A program made the translations under genes and the position numbers. The notes below the pieces were generated by a model. That model saw only the letters and a program-made list of their open reading frames with translations, ran no database searches and was not told the origin of the DNA. From Prevotella melaninogenica (lineage in GTDB: Bacteria; Bacteroidota; Bacteroidia; Bacteroidales; Bacteroidaceae), in assembly GCF_018128065.1 (NCBI RefSeq), contig NZ_CP072360.1:872501-936500 (forward strand): DNA of 64,000 nt, given 5' to 3'. Shown piece after piece: positions 14,680 to 24,949 of this stretch (the stretch's first letter is position 1; each line of letters begins with the position of its first letter).

Positions 14680-15390
14680 ATGGACAAGAGTAGAGCTATT
14701 TGTAAGGTCTTGAAGGATGTCCGTCAGAAGATTGCAAATGAGAATGGAATAAGCTATCATCCTGAAGAGTGCCACCATAAGGGTGAATGTACAGGTACGT
14801 GCCCTGGTTGTGAGAAGGAAATCCGTTACCTTGAAGAACAACTAAAGAATAAGCAGCATAGTGGTTTTGGCTTGAAGGTGGCTGGCATCGCTGCTGGCGT
14901 CTGTGTGACCGTATTGCCAATGATGGCTATGGTATAGCCTGAGGAAAAGATTAATCCTGAACAGAAAACTCCGGTTGTAAAGGAGGATAGTGTAAAAGTA
15001 GTAGACCTGACCAATGGGAACCCTGATGCTGTTCTATTACGTGGTCAGGTGCTTGATGCAAAGACAAAGGAGACTATTATTGGAGCCGTTGTTATGTTGA
15101 AAGGGTCAATGCCACCAAATGGATTGGGGACATGTACCAATCAGGATGGGTGGTATGCAGTAAAAGCTCTACCAACCGACACCTTAGATGCAAACTTTGT
15201 AGGCTATCATAAGTCGTTTTTGACGGTTAAAGAACTGTTAGCGACAAAGGATAAGACGATTTATCTTGAGGAGGATACTACCTATAAGCATGTTATTTTC
15301 ACCGTTGGAGGCATAGAAGGAACAACAGGAAAGTATCGTCCTAAGAAAGGACCTAAGTCGCATAAGGAAAAGAAGTGTAATAAGAAATAA
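14680..15390 (+). pseudogene. Cys-leader paralogue 1, interrupted by an in-frame amber codon
   Basis: First of four tandem paralogues. The leader (residues 1-85) contains CHHKGECTGTCPGCEKEIRYLE, then a hydrophobic segment (GFGLKVAGIAAGVCVTVLPM). TAG at 14935-14937 stops the frame after 85 codons, at the point where paralogues 2 and 3 have Gln after AAA; the same frame then runs on without interruption to 15390. The downstream part holds a carboxypeptidase-regulatory-like beta domain (RGQVLDAKTKETIIGAVVML) and ends in PKSHKEK plus a basic tail, as in the sister genes. A CAG-to-TAG change is the simplest explanation. Readthrough, or initiation at an internal ATG (15049), cannot be excluded. Confidence 0.75.
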
Positions 15391-15394
15391 AGTT

Positions 15395-16129
15395 ATGACG
15401 AAAGGAAAGAGTACTTGTAAGCTACTGAAGGATATTCGGCAGCAGATAGCGGATGCGAACGGTATCAGCTATCAGCCTAAAGAGTGTCACCACAAGGGGG
15501 ATTGTGCAGGTACTTGTCCTGCTTGTGAGGAAGAAATACGTTATCTTGAACGTGAGTTGAAAGCACGTAAGGGTAATGGCTTCGGTATGAAGGTAGCTGG
15601 TATCGCTGCAGGTATTTGTGCTACGGTTATGCCGATGACTGCTGCTGCGCAAGGTGTTAAGCCCGATAGTACTTCTAATCTTCCTGTGCGTACAGCCAAG
15701 AATGATTCTGTAAAGATTGTAGACTGCTCAAATGGTAATGCAGCTGCTGTGGTTGTACGTGGAATGGTAATAGACGGTGATGATAAGGAACCTTTGATAG
15801 GTGCTTCTGTTTTAATAGAGGGCACAAACAAGGGTGTGGCAACAAATATTGATGGACTTTTTGCATTGAAGTTACCATCAGACACTTCGTTGGCTATTTC
15901 ATATATCGGATACAAGACCAAGAAGGTTCTTGTAAGCTCTCTTTTGCATTCTGATGATAATGTTATAGTGCTTGAGGAAGATAGAGATGCAATGTTAGAT
16001 GGCATTGTAACAATTGCTACACCACCTACCTGTAAAGGTGAAAATAAAGGTAATAAAGATGACCAGAGTGGTCGTAGAACTGATAAGCCTAAGTCGCATA
16101 AGGAGAAGAATAAAAAGAAGTATAAGTAA
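15395..16129 (+). CDS. Cys-leader paralogue 2, exported regulatory-like beta-domain protein
   Basis: 244 residues in three parts. (1) A cytosolic-type leader of about 60 residues with Cys31-His-His, Cys37-x3-Cys41-x2-Cys44 and then EEEIRYLE; four Cys could bind Zn or an Fe-S cluster. (2) A hydrophobic segment, residues 61-80, ending MTAAAQ, which looks like a signal-peptidase I site displaced far from the N-terminus. (3) A domain of the CarboxypepD_reg type (VVVRGMVIDGDDKEPLIGASV...GVATNIDGLFALKLP...ISYIGYKTKKV), followed by a basic tail containing PKSHKEK. No known family name can be assigned. It starts 4 nt after paralogue 1. Confidence 0.8.
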   Translation: MTKGKSTCKLLKDIRQQIADANGISYQPKECHHKGDCAGTCPACEEEIRYLERELKARKGNGFGMKVAGIAAGICATVMPMTAAAQGVKPDSTSNLPVRTAKNDSVKIVDCSNGNAAAVVVRGMVIDGDDKEPLIGASVLIEGTNKGVATNIDGLFALKLPSDTSLAISYIGYKTKKVLVSSLLHSDDNVIVLEEDRDAMLDGIVTIATPPTCKGENKGNKDDQSGRRTDKPKSHKEKNKKKYK

Positions 16130-16140
16130 AGATTAGTATT

Positions 16141-16848
16141 ATGGCAAAAGGGAAGAGTACTTGTAAGCTACTGAAGGATATTCGGCAGCAGATAGCGGAT
16201 GCGAACGGTATCAGTTATCAGCCTAAAGAGTGTCACCACAAGGGGGATTGTGCAGGTACTTGTCCTGCTTGTGAGGAAGAAATACGTTATCTTGAACGTG
16301 AATTAAGAGCACGTAAGGGTAATGGCTTCGGTATGAAGGTAGCTGGTATCGCTGCAGGTATTTGTGCTACGGTAATGCCAATGACTGCTGCTGCGCAAAA
16401 TGTTAAGCCCGATAGTACTTCTAATCTTCCTGTGCGTACAGCCAAGAAAGATTCTGTAAAGGTAGTAGACCTTTCTGAAGGTTGTGCATCACCTGTAGTT
16501 GTACGTGGAATGGTCATTGGTAGTGATGATAAAGAACCATTGATAGGAGCTTTTATCTTAATAGAGGGAACAAACAAGGGTGTGGCAACAAATATAGATG
16601 GTTTGTTTGCTTTGAAGTTACCACCAGATACTTCGTTGGTTATTTCATTCATTGGTTACAAGCAGAAAACGGTTAGTGTAAGTTCTCTTTTGCGTTCAGA
16701 TGATAATGTTATTGTACTGGAAGCCTATGATGTGTCGGTGATAGTAGGAGGAATTGGATCTGTTTTACCAAACTACGATGATGTGTATGGTCATAGGACT
16801 TATAAGCCGAAGTCGCATAAGGAGAAGAATAAAAAGAAGTGTAAGTAA
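16141..16848 (+). CDS. Cys-leader paralogue 3
   Basis: 235 residues. The first about 110 residues are nearly identical to paralogue 2, also at synonymous positions, while the C-terminal third diverges (GGIGSVLPNYDDVYGHRTY), showing recent duplication or gene conversion of the 5' part. Same leader (Cys31, Cys37, Cys41, Cys44), same hydrophobic segment ending AAAQ, same CarboxypepD_reg-like domain (VVRGMVIGSDDKEPLIGAF...ISFIGYKQKTV), same terminal KPKSHKEK plus lysine-rich tail. Starts 11 nt after paralogue 2. Function unknown. Confidence 0.8.
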   Translation: MAKGKSTCKLLKDIRQQIADANGISYQPKECHHKGDCAGTCPACEEEIRYLERELRARKGNGFGMKVAGIAAGICATVMPMTAAAQNVKPDSTSNLPVRTAKKDSVKVVDLSEGCASPVVVRGMVIGSDDKEPLIGAFILIEGTNKGVATNIDGLFALKLPPDTSLVISFIGYKQKTVSVSSLLRSDDNVIVLEAYDVSVIVGGIGSVLPNYDDVYGHRTYKPKSHKEKNKKKCK

Positions 16849-16859
16849 AGATTAGCATT

Positions 16860-17564
16860 ATGACAAAAGGAAAAAGTACTTGTAAGCTATTGAAGGATAT
16901 TCGGCAGCAGATAGCGGATGCGAATGGTATCAGTTATCAGCCTAAAGAGTGTCATCACAAGGGGGATTGTGCGGGTACTTGTCCTGCTTGTGAGGCGGAG
17001 ATACGCTATTTAGAGGCACAGTTACGAGAACGGAAACGCAAGGGGTGGGGCATGAAAGTGGCTGGCTTGGCAGCTGGACTTTGTGTTGCAACTGTTCCGC
17101 TTACATCATGTCAGAATACTCCAAAGGACTGTAATGTTGAGAATAAAGCTCAGGATTCTATAGATATGCCAGTTATGGGCGAGAAGGTAGTTATACCCAA
17201 AGCACTCACAACAGATTTGAAGAACGCTATCGTTATTAGTGGGCAAGTGTTGGATGCTTCTACAGGTAAGGCTGCTTCTGAAGTTAATGTTATGATATTA
17301 GGAGGTAAGAAGAGACTATCTTTGGGCGAAGATGGAAGGTTTGCATTGCAGGTTAATCGCAGTGACACCCTTGTGTTTTCATCTTATGGGTTTGAGGATA
17401 AGGTGATCGCTGTGGAGTCTGTTCGTAATCCTAATGATATGGTTGTCCGTTTAGAACCCTCTCTTGCCTTAGTCGGGGACGTAGAAGATATCAGCTATTT
17501 AGAGAAAGAGTTATCCGACAGCACAGCACCGCAATCACATAAAGAGAAATGCAATCAGAAGTAA
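16860..17564 (+). CDS. Cys-leader paralogue 4 with a lipobox-like processing site
   Basis: 234 residues. The leader is again almost identical through ACEAEIRYLE, but the hydrophobic segment (GWGMKVAGLAAGLCVATVP) ends LTSC, a lipobox-like sequence at Cys84, instead of the AAAQ of paralogues 2 and 3. The exported part differs most: AIVISGQVLDASTGKAASEV followed by DGRFALQVNRSDTLVFSSYGFEDKV, still a carboxypeptidase-regulatory-like beta domain. It ends APQSHKEKCNQK. Its last 16 nt overlap the radical-SAM gene in another frame, which ties the two translationally. Confidence 0.8.
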   Translation: MTKGKSTCKLLKDIRQQIADANGISYQPKECHHKGDCAGTCPACEAEIRYLEAQLRERKRKGWGMKVAGLAAGLCVATVPLTSCQNTPKDCNVENKAQDSIDMPVMGEKVVIPKALTTDLKNAIVISGQVLDASTGKAASEVNVMILGGKKRLSLGEDGRFALQVNRSDTLVFSSYGFEDKVIAVESVRNPNDMVVRLEPSLALVGDVEDISYLEKELSDSTAPQSHKEKCNQK

Positions 17565-18169
17565 CAGCACCGTTTATCGCCATTAATCGGCACAGACTCA
17601 CTACTGATGGAGAAGGCGTAACAACATTGGTTGCCTTTCATGGTTGTCCGCTTCATTGCCAGTACTGCTTAAACGCTCAGTGCTTGCAGGCTGATGGTGT
17701 ATGGTGCAGGCTGACGCCCGGTGAGTTGTATAGTGAGGTGGAGATAGACGACCTTTACTTTGTGGCAACGGGTGGCGGTATCTGTTTTGGCGGTGGTGAA
17801 CCCCTTTTACGTTCAGACTTCATTAAAGCCTTTGCCGAGATAATGAATCCCGAATGGAAGTTGACAATAGAGACATCGCTCAACGTACCGCTTGAGAATG
17901 TCAAAGCTATTGCCTCGTTGGTGCAGATGTGGTATGTAGATATAAAGGACATGAACCCTGATATCTACAAAGCGTATGGATGTAAAGAGAATAAGCAGGT
18001 AGTTAGTAATCTTCAATGGTTAGCAGCGAACGGATATGCTGATAAGGTAATTATCCGTCTACCCTTGATACCTGAATATAATACAGATGAAGACCGTCAG
18101 CGAAGCCAACAACAGTTGGAAGATATGGGCTTTACAAACTTTGATAAGTTTAATTATATTGTGCGGTAG
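17549..18169 (+). CDS. Short radical-SAM protein, activase-like
   Basis: 206 residues. CxxxCxxC is present as FHGCPLHCQYC (about residues 31-38), which binds the catalytic [4Fe-4S] cluster; GGGICFGGGEPLL is the SAM-binding GGE-type motif; MWYVDIKDMNPD is a further conserved strand. Size and sequence resemble glycyl-radical-enzyme activases or NrdG-type proteins, but no glycyl-radical enzyme is encoded nearby, and it overlaps paralogue 4 by 16 nt. The likely partners are therefore the four Cys-leader proteins (inference). ATG at 17549 is needed to keep the N-terminus preceding the cluster. The next gene has its own promoter, so this is the operon end. Confidence 0.85.
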   Translation: MQSEVTAPFIAINRHRLTTDGEGVTTLVAFHGCPLHCQYCLNAQCLQADGVWCRLTPGELYSEVEIDDLYFVATGGGICFGGGEPLLRSDFIKAFAEIMNPEWKLTIETSLNVPLENVKAIASLVQMWYVDIKDMNPDIYKAYGCKENKQVVSNLQWLAANGYADKVIIRLPLIPEYNTDEDRQRSQQQLEDMGFTNFDKFNYIVR

Positions 18170-18257: not shown

Positions 18258-21200
18258 ATGAAAAAGTCACTTGTCATTTTATCAATTATATTTTTGTTGT
18301 TGCCTATCACAGTAACAGCACAGAGTTTTGATGCTTTGTGGCAACAAGTAAATCAAGCTGAGCAAAAGGACTTACCAAAGACACAAATCAGTTTGTTGCA
18401 GAAGATTGAACAGAAAGCACAGAAAGAGAAAGCCTATGGGCAAATCTTGGCAGCAAGTCTGTTAGCATCAAGGTTACAGACAGAGATTGCACCCGACTCT
18501 GCTGAGGTAGAGTTAAATCGATTGAAGGCAAAGGCAAAGATGGTAGAAGGTAAGGATGAAGTCTTGTCGGCTGTCTACAACTGTATCTTGGGTGTGATAG
18601 GACGGAATGAAGAAAGTGGAAATGCTGACGAATACTTCAAGAAGGCACTTGCTAACCCTTCTCTACTGGCAAGTCAGAAAGCAGCCGACTTTAAGCCTTT
18701 GATAAAGATAGGTAAAAACGATGATATCTTTAAGGGTGACCTACTGCATGTTATTGGTATGCAGGTGGGTAACTACGACAAATTACATAGCTATTATAAA
18801 AGCGTTGGAAACCGTGAGGCTGCTTGTTACACGGCATTGATGGGAATAAAGGAAGAGAAAGAGAGTATTCCAAAGCTCGACTCACTCATGCAGGCGTATA
18901 GCGACTTACCGATATGTGGAGAAGTTGCGTTGAAGCGTTATGCTTGTATGGGAGAAGATACTCCGGTTGAGGAAAAGATAGCTTATATTGATAATGCACT
19001 TGTCCGTTGGGCATCATGGAATAGAATCATATCATTGCGTAATGCTCGTGCAGAACTGACAAGACCGATGTTTGAAGTGAGTTTCGATAAGCGTAATGTT
19101 AGTTCAACGGAGAAGAATAACTGGGTTAAGCTGAATACGCGCAATGTATCGGATGTAATCGTAACGGTTACGCGTACGAAACTATCAGGTAATCATTCTC
19201 TCAGTCTTGGAGATAAAGGCGACATGGCTAAGTTGAAGGCAAGTCTGTTGCCTGCTACAACGCAGACGATAACCCGTACTTTCACTGGTCATAAGGATTA
19301 TGAAGAGGTGAAAGACTCTTTCTTAATGCCTACATTACCTTTGGGTGTTTACCTCATTAAGGTAGAGACGCCTAAAAAGAATTTTACACCAGAATATGCT
19401 TTCTACTATGTTAGTGACCTCTATGTAATGAGCGAACTACAGCCAAAGAAGAAAGCACGGTATGTTGTTGTCAATGTTGTGGATGGTCAACCAGTAGCAA
19501 ATGCAACGGTTCAGGCTACCTATCCAAATTATAATGATAAACCTTCTATCGTCAAGAAACTGGTTACGAACAAGAATGGAGAGGTTGTTTTTGACTCGGA
19601 AAGAACTACCCCTGACATCTATGTCTTTACGAATAAGGATAAAGCCTTTGAAGAAACTCAACTGGAGGGGTCGTATGATTACGACAAGGTGAACTATGAC
19701 AAGATGGTAACTCAGGTCTTCACGGATAGAGGTATCTATCGTCCTGGACAGACGGTGCATGCATCTGTCATCGCTTATCAGAACACAAAGCAAGACTATA
19801 AGACTAAGGCTGCAGGCGGTCAGACCTTCGATATGGTTTTGAAAGATGCCAATTATAAGGAGATAGGACGTAAGTCAGTAACCACCGACCGTTTCGGTAC
19901 TGCTGCAGCAGACTTTAATCTTCCAACAAGTGGACTGACTGGTAGTTTCTCTATTTATGCTGATTTTGGAACAAAAGGATCTAAGCGTTTCCAAGTAGAT
20001 GAGTATAAGCGTCCAACGTTTGATGTAAACTTTGACGAGTATAAGGAGAAGTATGCTGTCGGTGATTCTATCAAGTTGATTGGTCGTGCCAAGAGTTTTG
20101 CTGGTGTACCTGTACAAGGTGCAAAGGTGCATTATGTCGTTACACGTAATATAAGCTATTGGTGTCGCTTCTATGAAGGGAGTGAGGAAGTGAATGAACA
20201 AGATGTTGTCACAGATGACAAGGGAGAGTTTGTTGTTACCGTGCCTTTTGTCTTATCTGACAAAGCCAAGAAAGAACTGAAGTCTGGTAAGGGTTATCGT
20301 TCACTTTTCTATAACTTTAGAGTTGAGGCTTCGGTGACTGATGCCGCAGGTGAGACACATGACGGTTTTACTTCATTGCCATTAGGAACAAAGGAGGCAA
20401 GTCTTTCTTGCAATATTCCTGAGAAGAATCTGCGTGACAGTCTTAAAACGATTAAGTTTAATTATCTGAACGCTGCAGGATCTCCTGTTGATGGCACTGT
20501 GAAGTATGTAATTGTGCCACAGCAGAAGGATAAGAATAATTATGTTTATAGCGATTACAAGTCCGCAAAGGCAAATGAGAATGTTGCTATAAAGGGTTTG
20601 ACTTCTGGTGCTTATCGTCTACATGCTATTTGCGGAACAGATACGATAGATGAGGACTTTGTCGTCTTCTCTTTTGATGATAAGCGTCCAGCTATTGAGA
20701 CACATGACTGGTTCTATCTGAGTGGAAACCAATTCCCTCGCGATGGTGGTCCTATCTATATGCAGGTGGGTTCAAGTGATGAGAATCAGTATGTTGTTTA
20801 TTCTATCTTCTCAGGTAATAAAGTGATTGAAACAGGTTCTTTCAATCAAAGCAATAGTATACAGACACGCAAGTTTGTCTATAAGGAAGAGTATGGTGAT
20901 GAGATATTTCTTAATTATGCTTGGGTAAAGAATGGCGTTCTATATGCTCATTCAGAGAGGATTATGCGTCCGTTACCAGATAAGAGCTTAATTGTGAAAT
21001 GGAAGACCTTCCGTAATAAACTTATCCCGGGTCAGCAGGAGGAATGGACAGTAACCATTAATCGTCCTGATGGCAAGACTGCCAATGCTCAACTGATGGC
21101 AACGCTTTATGACAAGAGTCTTGATCAGTTCTTGTCTAATTCATGGAACTTGGGCAACTTCTTCTCGCTTAACTATACATCTGTTAATTGGGAGAGTCCT

Positions 21201-23804
21201 GACTATTCTGGTTTGGGTCTTTCATGGGAAGCTAATATCAAACCTTTTGATGTAGACTGGTTGTCTTTCTCGAGATTTGATAGTCGCTTCTTAGAAGATT
21301 ATGATACGCCAGATGCTTATATTTATTCAGTAACATCAGACCGAATGGTAAGCATGACACGTACCGTTAAGACAATGGCTTTTGCAAAGGAATCTTCTAT
21401 GAATGAGGTCGTTAAGGTTGGCTTCGGATCTACAAAGAAAACGGAAGTGAAATTTACTGCTCCTGTTGTTAAGAAAGATGAAGAGATAAAACAAGAGAAG
21501 GACGAACCGAAGAATGTAAAGCCTTCTATGCGTGAGAATCTCAATGAGACTGCCTTCTTCTATCCACAGTTGCAGACGGATGGAAAGGGTAATGTAAGTA
21601 TTAAGTTTACGCTTCCAGAGAGCCTTACTACTTGGCGTTTCATGGGATTGGCACACGATGAGGATATGAACAATGGTTTCCTTTCAGATGATATCATTGC
21701 TCAGAAGACATTGATGGTGCAACCTAATATGCCTCGCTTCGTCCGTATGGGTGATGAGGCAATGGTGTCTACTCGTTTGTTCAACCAGTCTGAGAAGGAT
21801 ATCAATGCTAAGGCAAAGGTTGAAATCCTTGACCCTGCAACTGAGAAGGTGCTCTTTGCAGACAGTAAAGCTGTTGTCTTGAAAGCGCAGGGTAGTGGCT
21901 CAGCAGCTTATAGCTTAGCTTCATTGTTGGCGAAGAATGCCAATAAGCTTACAGCTGACCAGTCCTTACTTGTTGTTCGCTTCACGGTTGAGGGCGATGG
22001 TTTCTCTGATGGTGAGCAACATTACCTCTCAGTACTTCAGAATAAGGAGTATGTAACAAACACCTATCCATTCACACAGAATGATGCTGGGGTGAAGACG
22101 ATTAATGTTGGTAAGCTTTTCCCAAAGAAGAGTACGGATCAGAAGCTGACAGTAGAGTACACCAATAACCCTAATTGGCTGATGATTCAGGCATTGCCTT
22201 ATGTGGCAGATGCAAATGAAAAGAATGCAATCAGTCTTGTTTCGGCTTATTATGCAAATAGTTTGGGTAAGCAGATCATGAGTACTTCCCCAGCAATTAA
22301 GCAGACTATTGAGCAATGGAAGAAGGAAACAGGTAAGGAAACCTCTATGATGTCGGCTTTGGAGAAGAATCAAGAACTCAAGTCTTTGACACTTGACGAG
22401 ACTCCTTGGGTGATGGATGCTAAGAATGAAACCGAACAGAAACAGCAACTCGTGCGTTTCTTCGATGAGAATCAGTTGCAGAACAAGTTGACATCAACAT
22501 TCTCAAGTCTAAAGAAACTGCAAAACTCTGATGGTTCGTTCTCTTGGTGGCCAGGAATGAAGGGAAGTCTTTATATGACTGTTGCGGTGACGAAGACACT
22601 TGTTCGTTTGCAAAACCTTACAAGTCCTAACCCAGAGGTTACGAAGATGATTAACGCTTCTTTCCGATTTATGGATAAGATGGTGGCAAAGTGTGTGGCT
22701 GAGATGAAGCGTGATGAGAAGAGGTATAATACGATACTCTTCCCATCTGATGACCTTTGTGATTATCTTTACACCAATGCTTTGTTCTATCATGACCGAG
22801 CTACAAATGACATAAAGTATCTCATTGATCGCTTGGCTAAGAAGCCTACGGACTTAACCATCTATGGCAAAGCGAATACGGCAGTAATTCTTCAGCAGTA
22901 TGGTAAGATTGAGAAGGCACGTGAATATCTCCAGAGTATTAAGGAATATACAGTTTATACAGAGGAGATGGGACGTTACTTTGATTCTAAAAACGCTTAT
23001 TATAGCTGGCGTGATTATAAGATTCCAACAGAGGTGGCTGCTATTGAGGCAATAAAGACAATTACTCCTACTGATAGTAAGACTCTTGTTGAAATGCAGC
23101 GTTGGCTCTTGCAGGAGAAGCGTACGCAGGCTTGGGATACACCATTGAACTCGGTGAATGCTATTTGGGCATTTATGAATAATGGCAACTGGTTGATGCA
23201 GAATGGAGAGCATGCTACGTTGATGCTTGATAATAAGCCATTGCAAACAACACAGCCTACGGCAGGATTGGGTTATGTGAAAGCTACGCAGTCTGTTGAT
23301 TTCCAATCGACTGAGAATCATGATTTAGTTATCAGCAAGGCAAGCACTGGCACAAGTTGGGGCGCTGTCTATGCGCAGTTCTTCCAGACATCAACAGATA
23401 TCTCCGATGCTTCATCTGGCTTGAAGATTAAGCGCGAGGTAATGGTTGATAGTGTGCTGTTGAAGAGAGGTAAGAACCTTAAAGTTGGTGATAAGGTGCG
23501 TATCCGTTTGACGATCATTGCCGACCGTGATTACGACTTTGTGCAGGTTGTTGACAAGCGTGCTGCCTGCCTTGAGCCTGTTAGTCCGTTGAGTGGTTAT
23601 CGTTGGGGATATTACATTGCTCCAAAGGATTACACGACTAATTACTACTTCGACCAGATGGCAAAGGGTAAGCATGTCGTTGAGACAGAATATTATATTG
23701 ACCGAGCAGGTGTTTATCAGACAGGAACCTGCACTGCGCAATGTGCATACGCACCTGAATATAGTGGACATACAGGTGCAGATGTTATTCAAGTAGACGA
23801 GTAG
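18258..23804 (+). CDS. Bacterial alpha-2-macroglobulin family protein
   Basis: 1848 residues, signal peptide MKKSLVILSIIFLLLPITVTAQ. The N-terminal 250 residues are helical; MG domains follow, including MG2 with FTDRGIYRPGQTVHASV (about residue 490) and VDEYKRPTFDV (about 580). The A2M domain has LTTWRFMGLAHDEDMNNG (about 1120) and MPRFVRMGDE. The C-terminal helical barrel contains SDGSFSWWPG; the thioester CGEQ is absent, as in many Bacteroidetes versions. Such proteins are thought to trap proteases or aid periplasmic protection. At about residues 1045-1057 there is SMNEVVKVGFGSTKK, resembling the SusC/TonB-plug lead-in. The last codons merge with the repeat that follows. Confidence 0.9.
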   Translation: MKKSLVILSIIFLLLPITVTAQSFDALWQQVNQAEQKDLPKTQISLLQKIEQKAQKEKAYGQILAASLLASRLQTEIAPDSAEVELNRLKAKAKMVEGKDEVLSAVYNCILGVIGRNEESGNADEYFKKALANPSLLASQKAADFKPLIKIGKNDDIFKGDLLHVIGMQVGNYDKLHSYYKSVGNREAACYTALMGIKEEKESIPKLDSLMQAYSDLPICGEVALKRYACMGEDTPVEEKIAYIDNALVRWASWNRIISLRNARAELTRPMFEVSFDKRNVSSTEKNNWVKLNTRNVSDVIVTVTRTKLSGNHSLSLGDKGDMAKLKASLLPATTQTITRTFTGHKDYEEVKDSFLMPTLPLGVYLIKVETPKKNFTPEYAFYYVSDLYVMSELQPKKKARYVVVNVVDGQPVANATVQATYPNYNDKPSIVKKLVTNKNGEVVFDSERTTPDIYVFTNKDKAFEETQLEGSYDYDKVNYDKMVTQVFTDRGIYRPGQTVHASVIAYQNTKQDYKTKAAGGQTFDMVLKDANYKEIGRKSVTTDRFGTAAADFNLPTSGLTGSFSIYADFGTKGSKRFQVDEYKRPTFDVNFDEYKEKYAVGDSIKLIGRAKSFAGVPVQGAKVHYVVTRNISYWCRFYEGSEEVNEQDVVTDDKGEFVVTVPFVLSDKAKKELKSGKGYRSLFYNFRVEASVTDAAGETHDGFTSLPLGTKEASLSCNIPEKNLRDSLKTIKFNYLNAAGSPVDGTVKYVIVPQQKDKNNYVYSDYKSAKANENVAIKGLTSGAYRLHAICGTDTIDEDFVVFSFDDKRPAIETHDWFYLSGNQFPRDGGPIYMQVGSSDENQYVVYSIFSGNKVIETGSFNQSNSIQTRKFVYKEEYGDEIFLNYAWVKNGVLYAHSERIMRPLPDKSLIVKWKTFRNKLIPGQQEEWTVTINRPDGKTANAQLMATLYDKSLDQFLSNSWNLGNFFSLNYTSVNWESPDYSGLGLSWEANIKPFDVDWLSFSRFDSRFLEDYDTPDAYIYSVTSDRMVSMTRTVKTMAFAKESSMNEVVKVGFGSTKKTEVKFTAPVVKKDEEIKQEKDEPKNVKPSMRENLNETAFFYPQLQTDGKGNVSIKFTLPESLTTWRFMGLAHDEDMNNGFLSDDIIAQKTLMVQPNMPRFVRMGDEAMVSTRLFNQSEKDINAKAKVEILDPATEKVLFADSKAVVLKAQGSGSAAYSLASLLAKNANKLTADQSLLVVRFTVEGDGFSDGEQHYLSVLQNKEYVTNTYPFTQNDAGVKTINVGKLFPKKSTDQKLTVEYTNNPNWLMIQALPYVADANEKNAISLVSAYYANSLGKQIMSTSPAIKQTIEQWKKETGKETSMMSALEKNQELKSLTLDETPWVMDAKNETEQKQQLVRFFDENQLQNKLTSTFSSLKKLQNSDGSFSWWPGMKGSLYMTVAVTKTLVRLQNLTSPNPEVTKMINASFRFMDKMVAKCVAEMKRDEKRYNTILFPSDDLCDYLYTNALFYHDRATNDIKYLIDRLAKKPTDLTIYGKANTAVILQQYGKIEKAREYLQSIKEYTVYTEEMGRYFDSKNAYYSWRDYKIPTEVAAIEAIKTITPTDSKTLVEMQRWLLQEKRTQAWDTPLNSVNAIWAFMNNGNWLMQNGEHATLMLDNKPLQTTQPTAGLGYVKATQSVDFQSTENHDLVISKASTGTSWGAVYAQFFQTSTDISDASSGLKIKREVMVDSVLLKRGKNLKVGDKVRIRLTIIADRDYDFVQVVDKRAACLEPVSPLSGYRWGYYIAPKDYTTNYYFDQMAKGKHVVETEYYIDRAGVYQTGTCTAQCAYAPEYSGHTGADVIQVDE

Positions 23805-23950: not shown

Positions 23951-24949
23951 ATGCTTCAGATAGAGATAGATAATGGTAGTGGCTTTTGCTTCGGTGTGAC
24001 CACTGCTATTAAGAAAGCCGAAGAAGAATTGGCAAAGGGTACCAAGCTCTATTGCTTAGGTGACATCGTACACAACAGTATGGAGGTGGAACGCCTTACG
24101 AAGAAAGGACTCATTACCATCAACCACGAGCAGATGCGCACGTTGCACAACGTGAAAGTACTGCTGCGTGCCCACGGTGAACCCCCCGAGACCTACGAAC
24201 TGGCGAAGCGCAACAACATTGAGATTATTGATGCCACATGCCCCGTTGTGCTTGCCTTGCAGCGTCGTATCAAGACACAATACGAGAAAGAGCGACAACC
24301 CTCATATCTCATCTCCTCAATGAGCGACACCCCTCTCCGAGAGCCTTCCAAGCTAAGGTCCGTAGCGCAAGACAGCGCCGCCGTATCACTCCCCCCAGCA
24401 GTAGGCGAGGGGCAGGCACCGAGCGAAAGCTCCTCCATCGTCATCTTTGGCAAGAACGGTCACGCAGAGGTGTTAGGACTTGTTGGTCAGACCCATAGCC
24501 ACGCCATCGTCATAGAGAAGTTTGAAGATGTGAAAGCCTTAGATTTCAATCATGACATCTACCTTTACTCGCAGACGACGAAGAGCTTAGACGAGTTCCA
24601 TAAGATCATTGACTACATCCAAAGTCACATCTCACCCCATGCCAAGTTCCAGAGCTTCGATACAATCTGTCGCCAGGTAGCCAACCGAATGCCCAACATC
24701 TCAACCTTTGCTGCCCGTCACGACCTAATCCTCTTTGTTGCTGGTCGAAAGAGTTCCAACGGCAAGGTTCTCTTTCACGAATGTTTGAGTGTAAACCCAA
24801 ATTCCCATCAGGTTGAGAGTGCGGATGAAATCGATATGAGTTGGTTTGATGGTGTCGAGACTGTCGGAATCTGTGGGGCTACGAGTACGCCAAAATGGCT
24901 AATGGAAGAGTGTCGTGACGAGATACTTCGCCATCAGCGAAACCCATAA
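23951..24949 (+). CDS. ispH: 4-hydroxy-3-methylbut-2-enyl diphosphate reductase IspH with a repeat-derived insert
   Basis: Final enzyme of the MEP isoprenoid pathway, a [4Fe-4S] reductase forming IPP and DMAPP. Cluster cysteines are visible in GSGFCFGV (residue 13), IDATCPVV and VGICGATSTPKWLMEE; the catalytic-region VHNSMEVERL and RAHGEPPE are also present. The length of 332 residues exceeds the usual about 280-290 because of a low-complexity block at about residues 116-159 (RQPSYLISSMSDTPLREPSK...), between QRRIKTQYEKE and SSIVIFGKNGHAEV, which in relatives are almost adjacent. The block is encoded by GC-rich DNA of the intergenic-hairpin type. Whether the enzyme tolerates it is unknown, but all catalytic motifs are intact. 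Confidence 0.9.
   Translation: MLQIEIDNGSGFCFGVTTAIKKAEEELAKGTKLYCLGDIVHNSMEVERLTKKGLITINHEQMRTLHNVKVLLRAHGEPPETYELAKRNNIEIIDATCPVVLALQRRIKTQYEKERQPSYLISSMSDTPLREPSKLRSVAQDSAAVSLPPAVGEGQAPSESSSIVIFGKNGHAEVLGLVGQTHSHAIVIEKFEDVKALDFNHDIYLYSQTTKSLDEFHKIIDYIQSHISPHAKFQSFDTICRQVANRMPNISTFAARHDLILFVAGRKSSNGKVLFHECLSVNPNSHQVESADEIDMSWFDGVETVGICGATSTPKWLMEECRDEILRHQRNP
24299..24435 (+). repeat. Intergenic-type GC-rich repeat inside ispH
   Basis: Contains CACCCCTCTCCGAGAG and ACTCCCCCCAGCAGTAGGCGAGGGG, the same hairpin vocabulary as the CCCCTC...GAGGGG elements at 32315-32345, 36794-37028 and 44153-44189. It keeps the ispH frame open. Confidence 0.6.

Follow-up and report, generated by a model that had tools for sequence, protein, structure and literature searches.

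Within a 64,000-nucleotide stretch of the genome of Prevotella melaninogenica (contig NZ_CP072360.1, positions 872,501 to 936,500 of the forward strand; hereafter the window), the gene cluster at 14680-18169 combines proteins that begin with a conserved domain of about 60 residues and five cysteines (the Cys domain) with a short radical S-adenosylmethionine (rSAM) enzyme. The pairing of enzyme and domain is obligate in the genomes sampled, and the module has so far been found in Bacteroidales only, with carriers that include Prevotella species and rumen Bacteroidales. Judging from the sequences, we see an even chance that the Cys domain is a docking tag which brings a protein to the enzyme, and that a short motif in the rest of the protein (the body), (L/I/V/M/F)-x-G-(D/E)-(V/I/P), is the likely reaction site. 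The enzyme together with its portable five-Cys tag points to what is apparently an undescribed mechanism by which bacteria may give particular proteins a chemical mark, and a search of the open-access literature returned no paper that appears to describe the enzyme-domain pair.

Co-occurrence of the Cys domain and the rSAM enzyme

In an evenly drawn sample of the window's order, 15 of 393 genomes carry the Cys domain (13-row profile) and the same 15 of 393 carry the rSAM subfamily (9-row profile). The family sample contains 18 of 151 genomes with the domain and 17 with the enzyme, all of them within the 18; the extra genome, G398, is the sole sampled genome with a domain but no enzyme match, and beside its domain gene lies a 50-residue rSAM remnant with an internal stop and without the Cys motif. 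Both samples overlap, as G000 and G165 are positive in each, and together they hold 31 domain-bearing and 30 enzyme-bearing genomes. Enzyme searches used thresholds of E <= 1e-35 for the order and family samples and of 1e-25 for a sample of the phylum (395 genomes, those of the order among them being uncounted), in which the domain occurred only in G000 and G165, both from the window's family. For the window's own genus, four of the ten genomes listed in the family sample have domain and enzyme and six have neither.

The two genes are also neighbours. In all 30 enzyme-bearing genomes the nearest Cys domain lies at most 1391 bp from the rSAM gene, on the same strand in 29 of them, with the order domain-enzyme in 12 (one on opposite strands) and enzyme-domain in 18; this count leaves out a partial rSAM match in G515 and a partial domain match in G025 (E 1.6e-4). 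In 29 of the 30 genomes the enzyme is matched only once; one enzyme is accompanied by up to five domains, and 7 of 53 domains are located on other contigs. A scan of named genomes found the enzyme within the fetched stretch in 10 of 15 loci. The five others (L017-L021) form one related group: the L019 protein matches G340:C2, and G340 has its enzyme on another contig, the other four genomes not having been searched. Across 37 enzyme-domain pairs the pairwise distances are correlated (r 0.73, as against 0.33 at most in 2000 permutations), a value that shared descent alone could also give.

An earlier note on this DNA, made from the sequence, had proposed that leader and short rSAM enzyme are one system in which the leader may recruit the enzyme, and had named widespread leaders lacking a linked rSAM gene as a refutation. 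The opposite was observed: 30 of the 31 leader genomes have a full-length rSAM gene within 1.4 kb and the 31st has the decayed remnant. The view of leader and enzyme as one system is supported, the leader probably recruits the enzyme, and the recurrence of the domain with the enzyme in other genomes excludes chance as the origin of the pairing between shared N-terminus and rSAM gene.

The gene cluster

The source genome consists of two contigs (3.34 Mb), and the best named protein relatives include those of P. jejuni, P. melaninogenica and P. histicola. Four consecutive starts of open reading frames (ORFs) with a common N-terminus precede a 206-codon rSAM gene:

14680..14937, + strand: paralogue 1, first half, with the Cys domain (residues 1-64) and a hydrophobic segment, ended by an in-frame TAG
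14938..15390, + strand: paralogue 1, second half in the same frame, with a CarboxypepD_reg-like remnant (PF13715, E 2.9e-11) and a basic tail
15395..16129, + strand: paralogue 2, with the Cys domain, a hydrophobic segment with AAAQ (signal peptidase I-like), a CarboxypepD_reg-like body and the basic tail KPKSHKEK
15995..16009, + strand: relaxed linker motif LDGIV in paralogue 2, residues 201-205 (position counted by hand)
16141..16848, + strand: paralogue 3, architecture as in paralogue 2
16860..17564, + strand: paralogue 4, with the Cys domain, a hydrophobic segment ending in a lipobox-like LTSC, a diverged CarboxypepD_reg-like body and the tail QSHKEK
17469..17483, + strand: linker-type motif LVGDV in paralogue 4, residues 204-208, behind the body domain and not before it; candidate modification site (position counted by hand)
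17549..18169, + strand: 206-residue rSAM enzyme (CPLHCQYC, GGGEP), compact relative of the pyruvate formate-lyase (PFL)-activating enzyme

Of the four consecutive paralogues claimed by the earlier note, the four ORF starts stand and three genes are intact. The TAG cuts paralogue 1 after 85 residues and, because the second half still matches PF13715 in frame, it is a split gene; in P. jejuni (L008) the cluster is headed by a full-length gene of the paralogue-1 type. The 16-nt overlap between the rSAM ORF and paralogue 4, whose stop ends at 17564, and the lack of any other enzyme gene inside the cluster were both borne out. Each intact paralogue carries the Cys domain at residues 1-64, the hydrophobic segment at about 67-84 (ending in AAAQ in paralogues 2 and 3), PF13715 (E 2.1e-9 to 1.5e-16) and a basic SHKEK tail. 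The "exported beta domains" described before are thus CarboxypepD_reg-like bodies; PF13715 also begins SusC/RagA receptors, but plug and barrel are absent from the intact paralogues, in which the matches stop by profile position 85 of 981 (TIGR04056).

Paralogues 2 and 3 (15395-16848) are identical at 58 of 64 codons of the Cys domain and at 84 of 148 codons of the body; put the other way, 6 of 64 and 64 of 148 codons differ, with 4 versus 28 silent sites. The low divergence of the Cys domain, silent sites included, suggests gene conversion or an exchange of bodies under a fixed tag.

The five-Cys domain

Statistics on domain and motif use the fetched loci of the named-genome scan, the window's genome, and the order and family samples. 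The pattern C31-H32-H33-x3-C37-x3-C41-x2-C44 and the end E-x-E-I-R-Y-L-E are present in all four paralogues, as had been noticed before, and to these four cysteines a fifth one, C8, can be added. Among 65 unique domains C8, L11, R15, C31, C41, C44 and E47 are invariant (65/65), and G39 (64/65) and C37 (62/65) nearly so. The description of the 60-residue N-terminus as almost invariant applies to paralogues 2-4 and fails for paralogue 1, whose leader is only 62-63% identical to the others and has Ser at residue 4, a position occupied by Gly in 64 of the 65 unique domains. Between paralogues 2 and 4, amino-acid-changing differences affect 8 of 64 domain codons versus 99 of 141 aligned body codons.

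Structure prediction, of moderate confidence (pLDDT 73, pTM 0.54), yields a helix (3-21), a Cys loop and a second helix (42-62), and the fold was compared with the PDB by Foldseek and VIA searches. In the proteins scanned, all Pfam and NCBIfam models stayed below their cut-offs on the Cys domain; the only matches, from paralogue 1, were Fer4_4 (14.6 of 24 bits), Zn_ribbon_6 (13.8 of 25 bits) and YvyF (16.1 of 124.15 bits). The domain is probably a metal site. The three fusions of domain and enzyme described below keep the four loop cysteines with the second one shifted by one position. This arrangement is more in keeping with a metal site or disulfides than with a duplicate of the rSAM motif, and the link that had been drawn from the C-x3-C-x2-C spacing is not supported.

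The rSAM enzyme and its relatives

Over its 206 residues the enzyme matches Radical_SAM (56.1 bits) and Fer4_12 in Pfam, and no SPASM domain was matched. Its best NCBIfam matches are activases of glycyl-radical enzymes, both below their cut-offs (TIGR02494, 119.6 versus 174.35 bits; TIGR02493, 85.5 versus 231.75 bits), and the same holds for every activase model among the matches listed. TIGR02494 matches in two stretches, the better of which places enzyme residues 57-184 on profile positions 106-232 of 293 and leaves the profile before 106 uncovered; we take this skipped part to be the ferredoxin insert. Because the position of the match within 206 residues leaves no room for it, the two-cluster ferredoxin segment inserted behind the CX3CX2C motif in TIGR02494 activases is not present. 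The best solved relative is the PFL-activating enzyme (E about 2e-22 by profile), to which the enzyme profile aligns only up to residue 191 of 245. All 38 unique full-length enzymes of the fetched loci contain the CX3CX2C motif.

Members of the subfamily score at least 236 bits with profile A4, and the best other rSAM protein in nine genomes reaches 81.4 bits with profile A7. Related longer rSAM proteins (frames of 255-342 residues; 97.7-128.5 bits, A7) occur without the Cys domain in 14 genomes outside the order. With regard to possible partners, the window's genome encodes one PFL-like enzyme, on the other contig, and the rSAM protein adjoining it is 28% identical to the cluster enzyme over residues 18-183. 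A PFL-like enzyme (PF02901) is present in 15 of the 31 domain-bearing genomes and absent from 16, of which 15 have NrdD (PF13597) and one, G290 (99% complete), has neither. In terms of sequence, therefore, the enzyme is a compact rSAM protein derived from or related to the glycyl-radical-enzyme activases and, by the tests made, not an activase itself.

Bodies, fusions and standalone domains

Leaving out the fusions, 64 bodies of at least 20 residues follow the Cys domain. They fall into 13 groups without detected mutual similarity (BLASTP, E <= 1e-5), one of which holds 43 bodies and consists, as far as scanned, mostly of TonB_C and CarboxypepD_reg. Ten scanned proteins comprise CarboxypepD_reg, TonB_C (single, double or together with CarboxypepD_reg), HIRAN and serpin bodies, and further bodies are short lipoproteins. 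By simple rules rather than a trained predictor, 57 of the 64 follow a hydrophobic segment; 26 of these have a lipobox-like site, another 19 an AxA-like site and 12 neither. The seven that lack this segment behind the Cys domain comprise four HIRAN-type proteins (two assigned by Pfam scan, two by similarity grouping), the serpin and two standalone domains.

These standalone Cys domains, of 85-88 residues, lie beside the enzyme in G235 and G431. In three of 30 genomes (G135, G232, G374) the domain forms the C-terminus of the enzyme itself, without an exported body, and fused homologues are present in a protein collection as well (P0241, P0242). The fused protein is predicted with higher scores (pLDDT 84.5, pTM 0.81), and its best structural match is the PFL-activating enzyme. 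Because it is found with bodies of many kinds or with none, the domain is portable and not an export leader as such; the idea of an export system, also part of the earlier proposal, is not supported as such in view of the seven bodies without a hydrophobic segment and the three genomes with fusions. As the domain occurs on non-exported bodies, fused and standalone, no single body is essential.

Several gene neighbourhoods of the module deserve mention. Three genomes from the window's family (L069 5265-6893, L073 982-1548, L076 7018-8637) have NADAR or ADP-ribosylglycohydrolase genes next to the system, whose bodies are HIRAN-type or serpin there; a link to ADP-ribose metabolism is possible in these cases. 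Both genomes with standalone domains (L090 8447-15234, L091 8255-14805) have a common operon of DUF1848, a Sel1/BspA-LRR protein of about 1250 residues, the enzyme and the domain. In L087 (8807-11913) the operon consists of the enzyme-domain fusion, a 71-residue peptide with the motif treated below and a TonB-dependent receptor; L088 and L089 have the same order of gene sizes, the receptor domain having been scanned in L087 only.

A short motif shared by unlike bodies

LEGDV-like sites were noticed by eye, most of them in the stretch that leads from the Cys domain or hydrophobic segment to the folded body. The strict form, (L/I/V/M/F)-x-G-(D/E)-(V/I/P), occurs in 28 of 43 non-redundant bodies (shuffles: mean 4.9, largest 13), at a density of 4.66 per 1000 residues compared with 0.39 in 215 control ORFs of the same loci, i.e. 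about 12-fold higher. For the narrower L.GDV the corresponding values are 13 of 43 bodies versus 0.3 expected (largest of 500 shuffles: 2) and 1.81 versus 0.02 per 1000 residues. An unbiased count of gapped four-residue patterns over the 43 bodies put L.GDV level with patterns ascribed to TonB_C homology, with no pattern above 5 in 10 shuffled sets; in the linkers alone it tops all four-residue patterns (11 of 41; any pattern at most 4 in 50 shuffles). The strict motif is found in 11 of the 13 body groups, the other two being the tail-less domains, and with up to three sites in one body. A relaxed form, [LIVMF].G.[VI], is present in 41 of 43 bodies (shuffles: mean 17.8, largest 26), a count that we give no weight because it is inflated by strands of the body domains. 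Across 50 paralogue-4-like proteins the core of the motif reads VG(D/E/G)(V/I), and in the HIRAN-type protein of G398, which has lost the enzyme, the only strict match lies inside the HIRAN region and not in the linker.

The fusions supply the strongest individual indication that domain, enzyme and motif are one system. Directly downstream of all three lies an ORF of 71-76 residues with LIGDI or LVGDI near its end, the motif having been defined beforehand, and then a 664-residue gene; in L087, where it was scanned, this encodes a TonB-dependent receptor. Counted by first, second and third codon position, the small ORFs of G232 and G374 show 20, 14 and 43 differences, the pattern expected of coding DNA; in the two comparisons with G135 the excess at third positions is less marked (29/25/39 and 30/25/37). 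No NCBIfam model scored above its cut-off for the small motif peptide.

Neighbouring genes

Directly after the cluster, the window contains a gene for a bacterial alpha-2-macroglobulin of 1848 residues (18258-23804). The genes that come after the cluster in P. jejuni, P. histicola and P. denticola belong to a single similarity group, a comparison made apart from the window's alpha-2-macroglobulin. The ORF at 23951-24949, presumably IspH/LytB-like by its translation, has about 45 extra residues near 24300-24437 that look like an in-frame insertion; a 27-base piece is single-copy in the window.

Proposed mechanism and alternatives

Taken together, we infer docking, metal binding, modification at the motif and cleavage of the domain, in the following scheme. 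The module would consist of i) a compact rSAM enzyme related to glycyl-radical-enzyme activases and ii) a dedicated five-Cys domain of about 60 residues (predicted helix, Cys loop, helix) that docks on this enzyme. In the usual case the docking domain would be the N-terminus of the substrate and keep the newly made protein bound to the enzyme in the cytosol, where the enzyme would act on the (L/I/V/M/F)-x-G-(D/E)-(V/I/P) motif. In most members the body would then be exported as a lipoprotein or secreted protein, and the docking domain would be lost with the signal segment. In the fusion clade the enzyme itself would carry the docking domain at its C-terminus, with the separate motif peptide of 71-76 residues as the probable substrate. 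The PFL-activating enzyme abstracts a hydrogen atom from the glycine in RVSGYAV, a sequence loosely like the motif found here; by analogy, hydrogen abstraction at the motif glycine is conceivable but speculative. A broader version is a general form of protein marking that we can put forward only tentatively: the rSAM enzyme, of activase descent, would introduce a change centred on glycine (perhaps a glycyl radical that persists, or a place where the backbone is cleaved) into the motif of any five-Cys-tagged protein, cytosolic or envelope.

Several findings weigh against docking and reaction at the motif. The motif was first spotted in the same sequences that were used for its enrichment, and the independent check amounts to one homologous family of three ORFs, with about 0.03 matches expected by chance per ORF at the control rate. 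The coding signal of these small ORFs is modest (changing versus silent codons 36/15, 32/17 and 29/22 in the three pairs), the third-position excess being clear only for G232/G374. Paralogues 2 and 3 of the window contain only relaxed forms, the large group of 43 bodies has the strict form in only 18, and the standalone domains of G235 and G431 have no motif, nor was one found in any convincing neighbour. Besides, contig G515:C210 carries a second, partial rSAM match (profile 6-88, 147 bits) with no domain reported on the contig, and the fusion of domain and enzyme agrees with an enzyme subunit no less than with a docking tag.

The latter point leads to the main rival, a serious alternative although clearly the less probable one: the Cys domain could be a subunit with an Fe-S cluster or Zn that gives electrons to the enzyme or completes its shortened rSAM barrel, and the bodies would tether the enzyme to membranes, receptors or other places. 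The C-terminal fusions, the standalone domains beside the enzyme, the alignment to the PFL-activating enzyme that ends at residue 191 of 245 and the single enzyme match in 29 of 30 genomes all agree with a subunit. Up to five domains per enzyme, 7 of 53 of them on other contigs, do not, and a position ahead of a hydrophobic segment in 57 of 64 proteins, many with lipobox-like (26) or AxA-like (19 more) sites, would be odd for a subunit; nor does this explanation account for the shared motif.

Alternatively, the enzyme might modify the Cys domain itself, e.g. by forming a Cys-derived crosslink or by placing a radical on Gly39, which is nearly invariant, with bodies and motif being a separate downstream matter. 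The far stronger conservation of the domain than of the bodies (8/64 versus 99/141 codons in paralogues 2 and 4), the invariance of C8, C31, C41 and C44 together with G39 in 64 of 65 domains, and the tail-less standalone domains, which leave little else to modify, speak for this. We nevertheless consider it unlikely, as a docking fold explains the conservation equally well, the fusions would become self-modifying enzymes beside a motif peptide, and the enrichment of the motif goes unexplained.

Less probable still is a role of the motif as a contact site of TonB-type envelope signalling, in the manner of a TonB box relative, with the enzyme serving TonB-dependent receptors and radical chemistry taking place elsewhere. 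The two main body types, TonB_C and the CarboxypepD_reg of SusC/RagA receptors, do belong to the TonB machinery and the fusion operon of L087 continues with a TonB-dependent receptor, but the motif is also found in bodies without an export signal, namely the linker of three of the four HIRAN-type proteins (L067, L079, L073) and the serpin protein, and in short lipoproteins without an evident TonB part. Finally, an ordinary glycyl-radical-enzyme activase with a partner encoded elsewhere, an objection that the earlier note had raised against itself, is already disfavoured and very improbable: despite the best matches being activases (TIGR02494; PFL-activating enzyme as best solved relative), the enzyme scores below the cut-off of every activase model among the matches listed, the only PFL-like enzyme of the window's genome has its own adjoining rSAM protein, and 16 of 31 domain genomes have no PFL-like enzyme, G290 having no NrdD match either.

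Comparison with known systems

With the PFL-activating enzyme and the TIGR02494 and TIGR02493 families, the enzyme shares the rSAM fold and the CX3CX2C, DGxG and GGE-type motifs, and they are its best matches in sequence and fold. It differs from glycyl-radical-enzyme activases in its length of about 205 residues, in scores below the curated cut-offs, in having no linked glycyl-radical enzyme and in being tied to a Cys-domain protein. If the reaction centre were indeed a glycine outside any glycyl-radical enzyme, this would bear on the evolution of glycyl-radical chemistry.

A second set of relatives are the SusC/RagA receptors and proteins with a TonB C-terminal domain, as their domains are the commonest bodies of the system. 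However, the window proteins are without plug or barrel, and the TonB_C bodies sit behind a Cys domain. The body of paralogue 4 also has a weak match to the model NF053692 of BamP (24.3 bits), far below the cut-off of 230 bits; BamP is described as a component of the β-barrel assembly machinery (BAM) of Bacteroidota (PMC12611786).

In this context, the closest parallel is provided by the rSAM-modified ribosomally synthesized and post-translationally modified peptides (RiPPs) of Bacteroidales with their SPASM maturases and GG-leader precursors. These likewise combine a recognition part, a variable part with short sites and one adjoining rSAM enzyme, and the fusion clade has a candidate small peptide gene (71-76 residues) beside the enzyme. 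Mining of Bacteroidales for RiPPs reported many lone rSAM areas in Prevotellaceae (PMC10352776); the abstract, section 12 and the passages of that paper found by term do not mention the rSAM/Cys-domain system. In contrast to rSAM/SPASM maturases, the enzyme has no SPASM match, the recognition part is a Cys domain that is able to lie on the enzyme, and the partners are mostly full-size proteins. What is new in our analysis is a short motif of five residues, common to unlike bodies, as a candidate modification site outside the leader. If true, the use of a portable domain, attached to unlike proteins, to bring in an rSAM enzyme would carry rSAM peptide chemistry beyond small natural-product precursors, to full-size envelope and cytosolic proteins. 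In outline, the system works most like the rSAM/SPASM maturase systems, yet by the tests made it is not a member of them.

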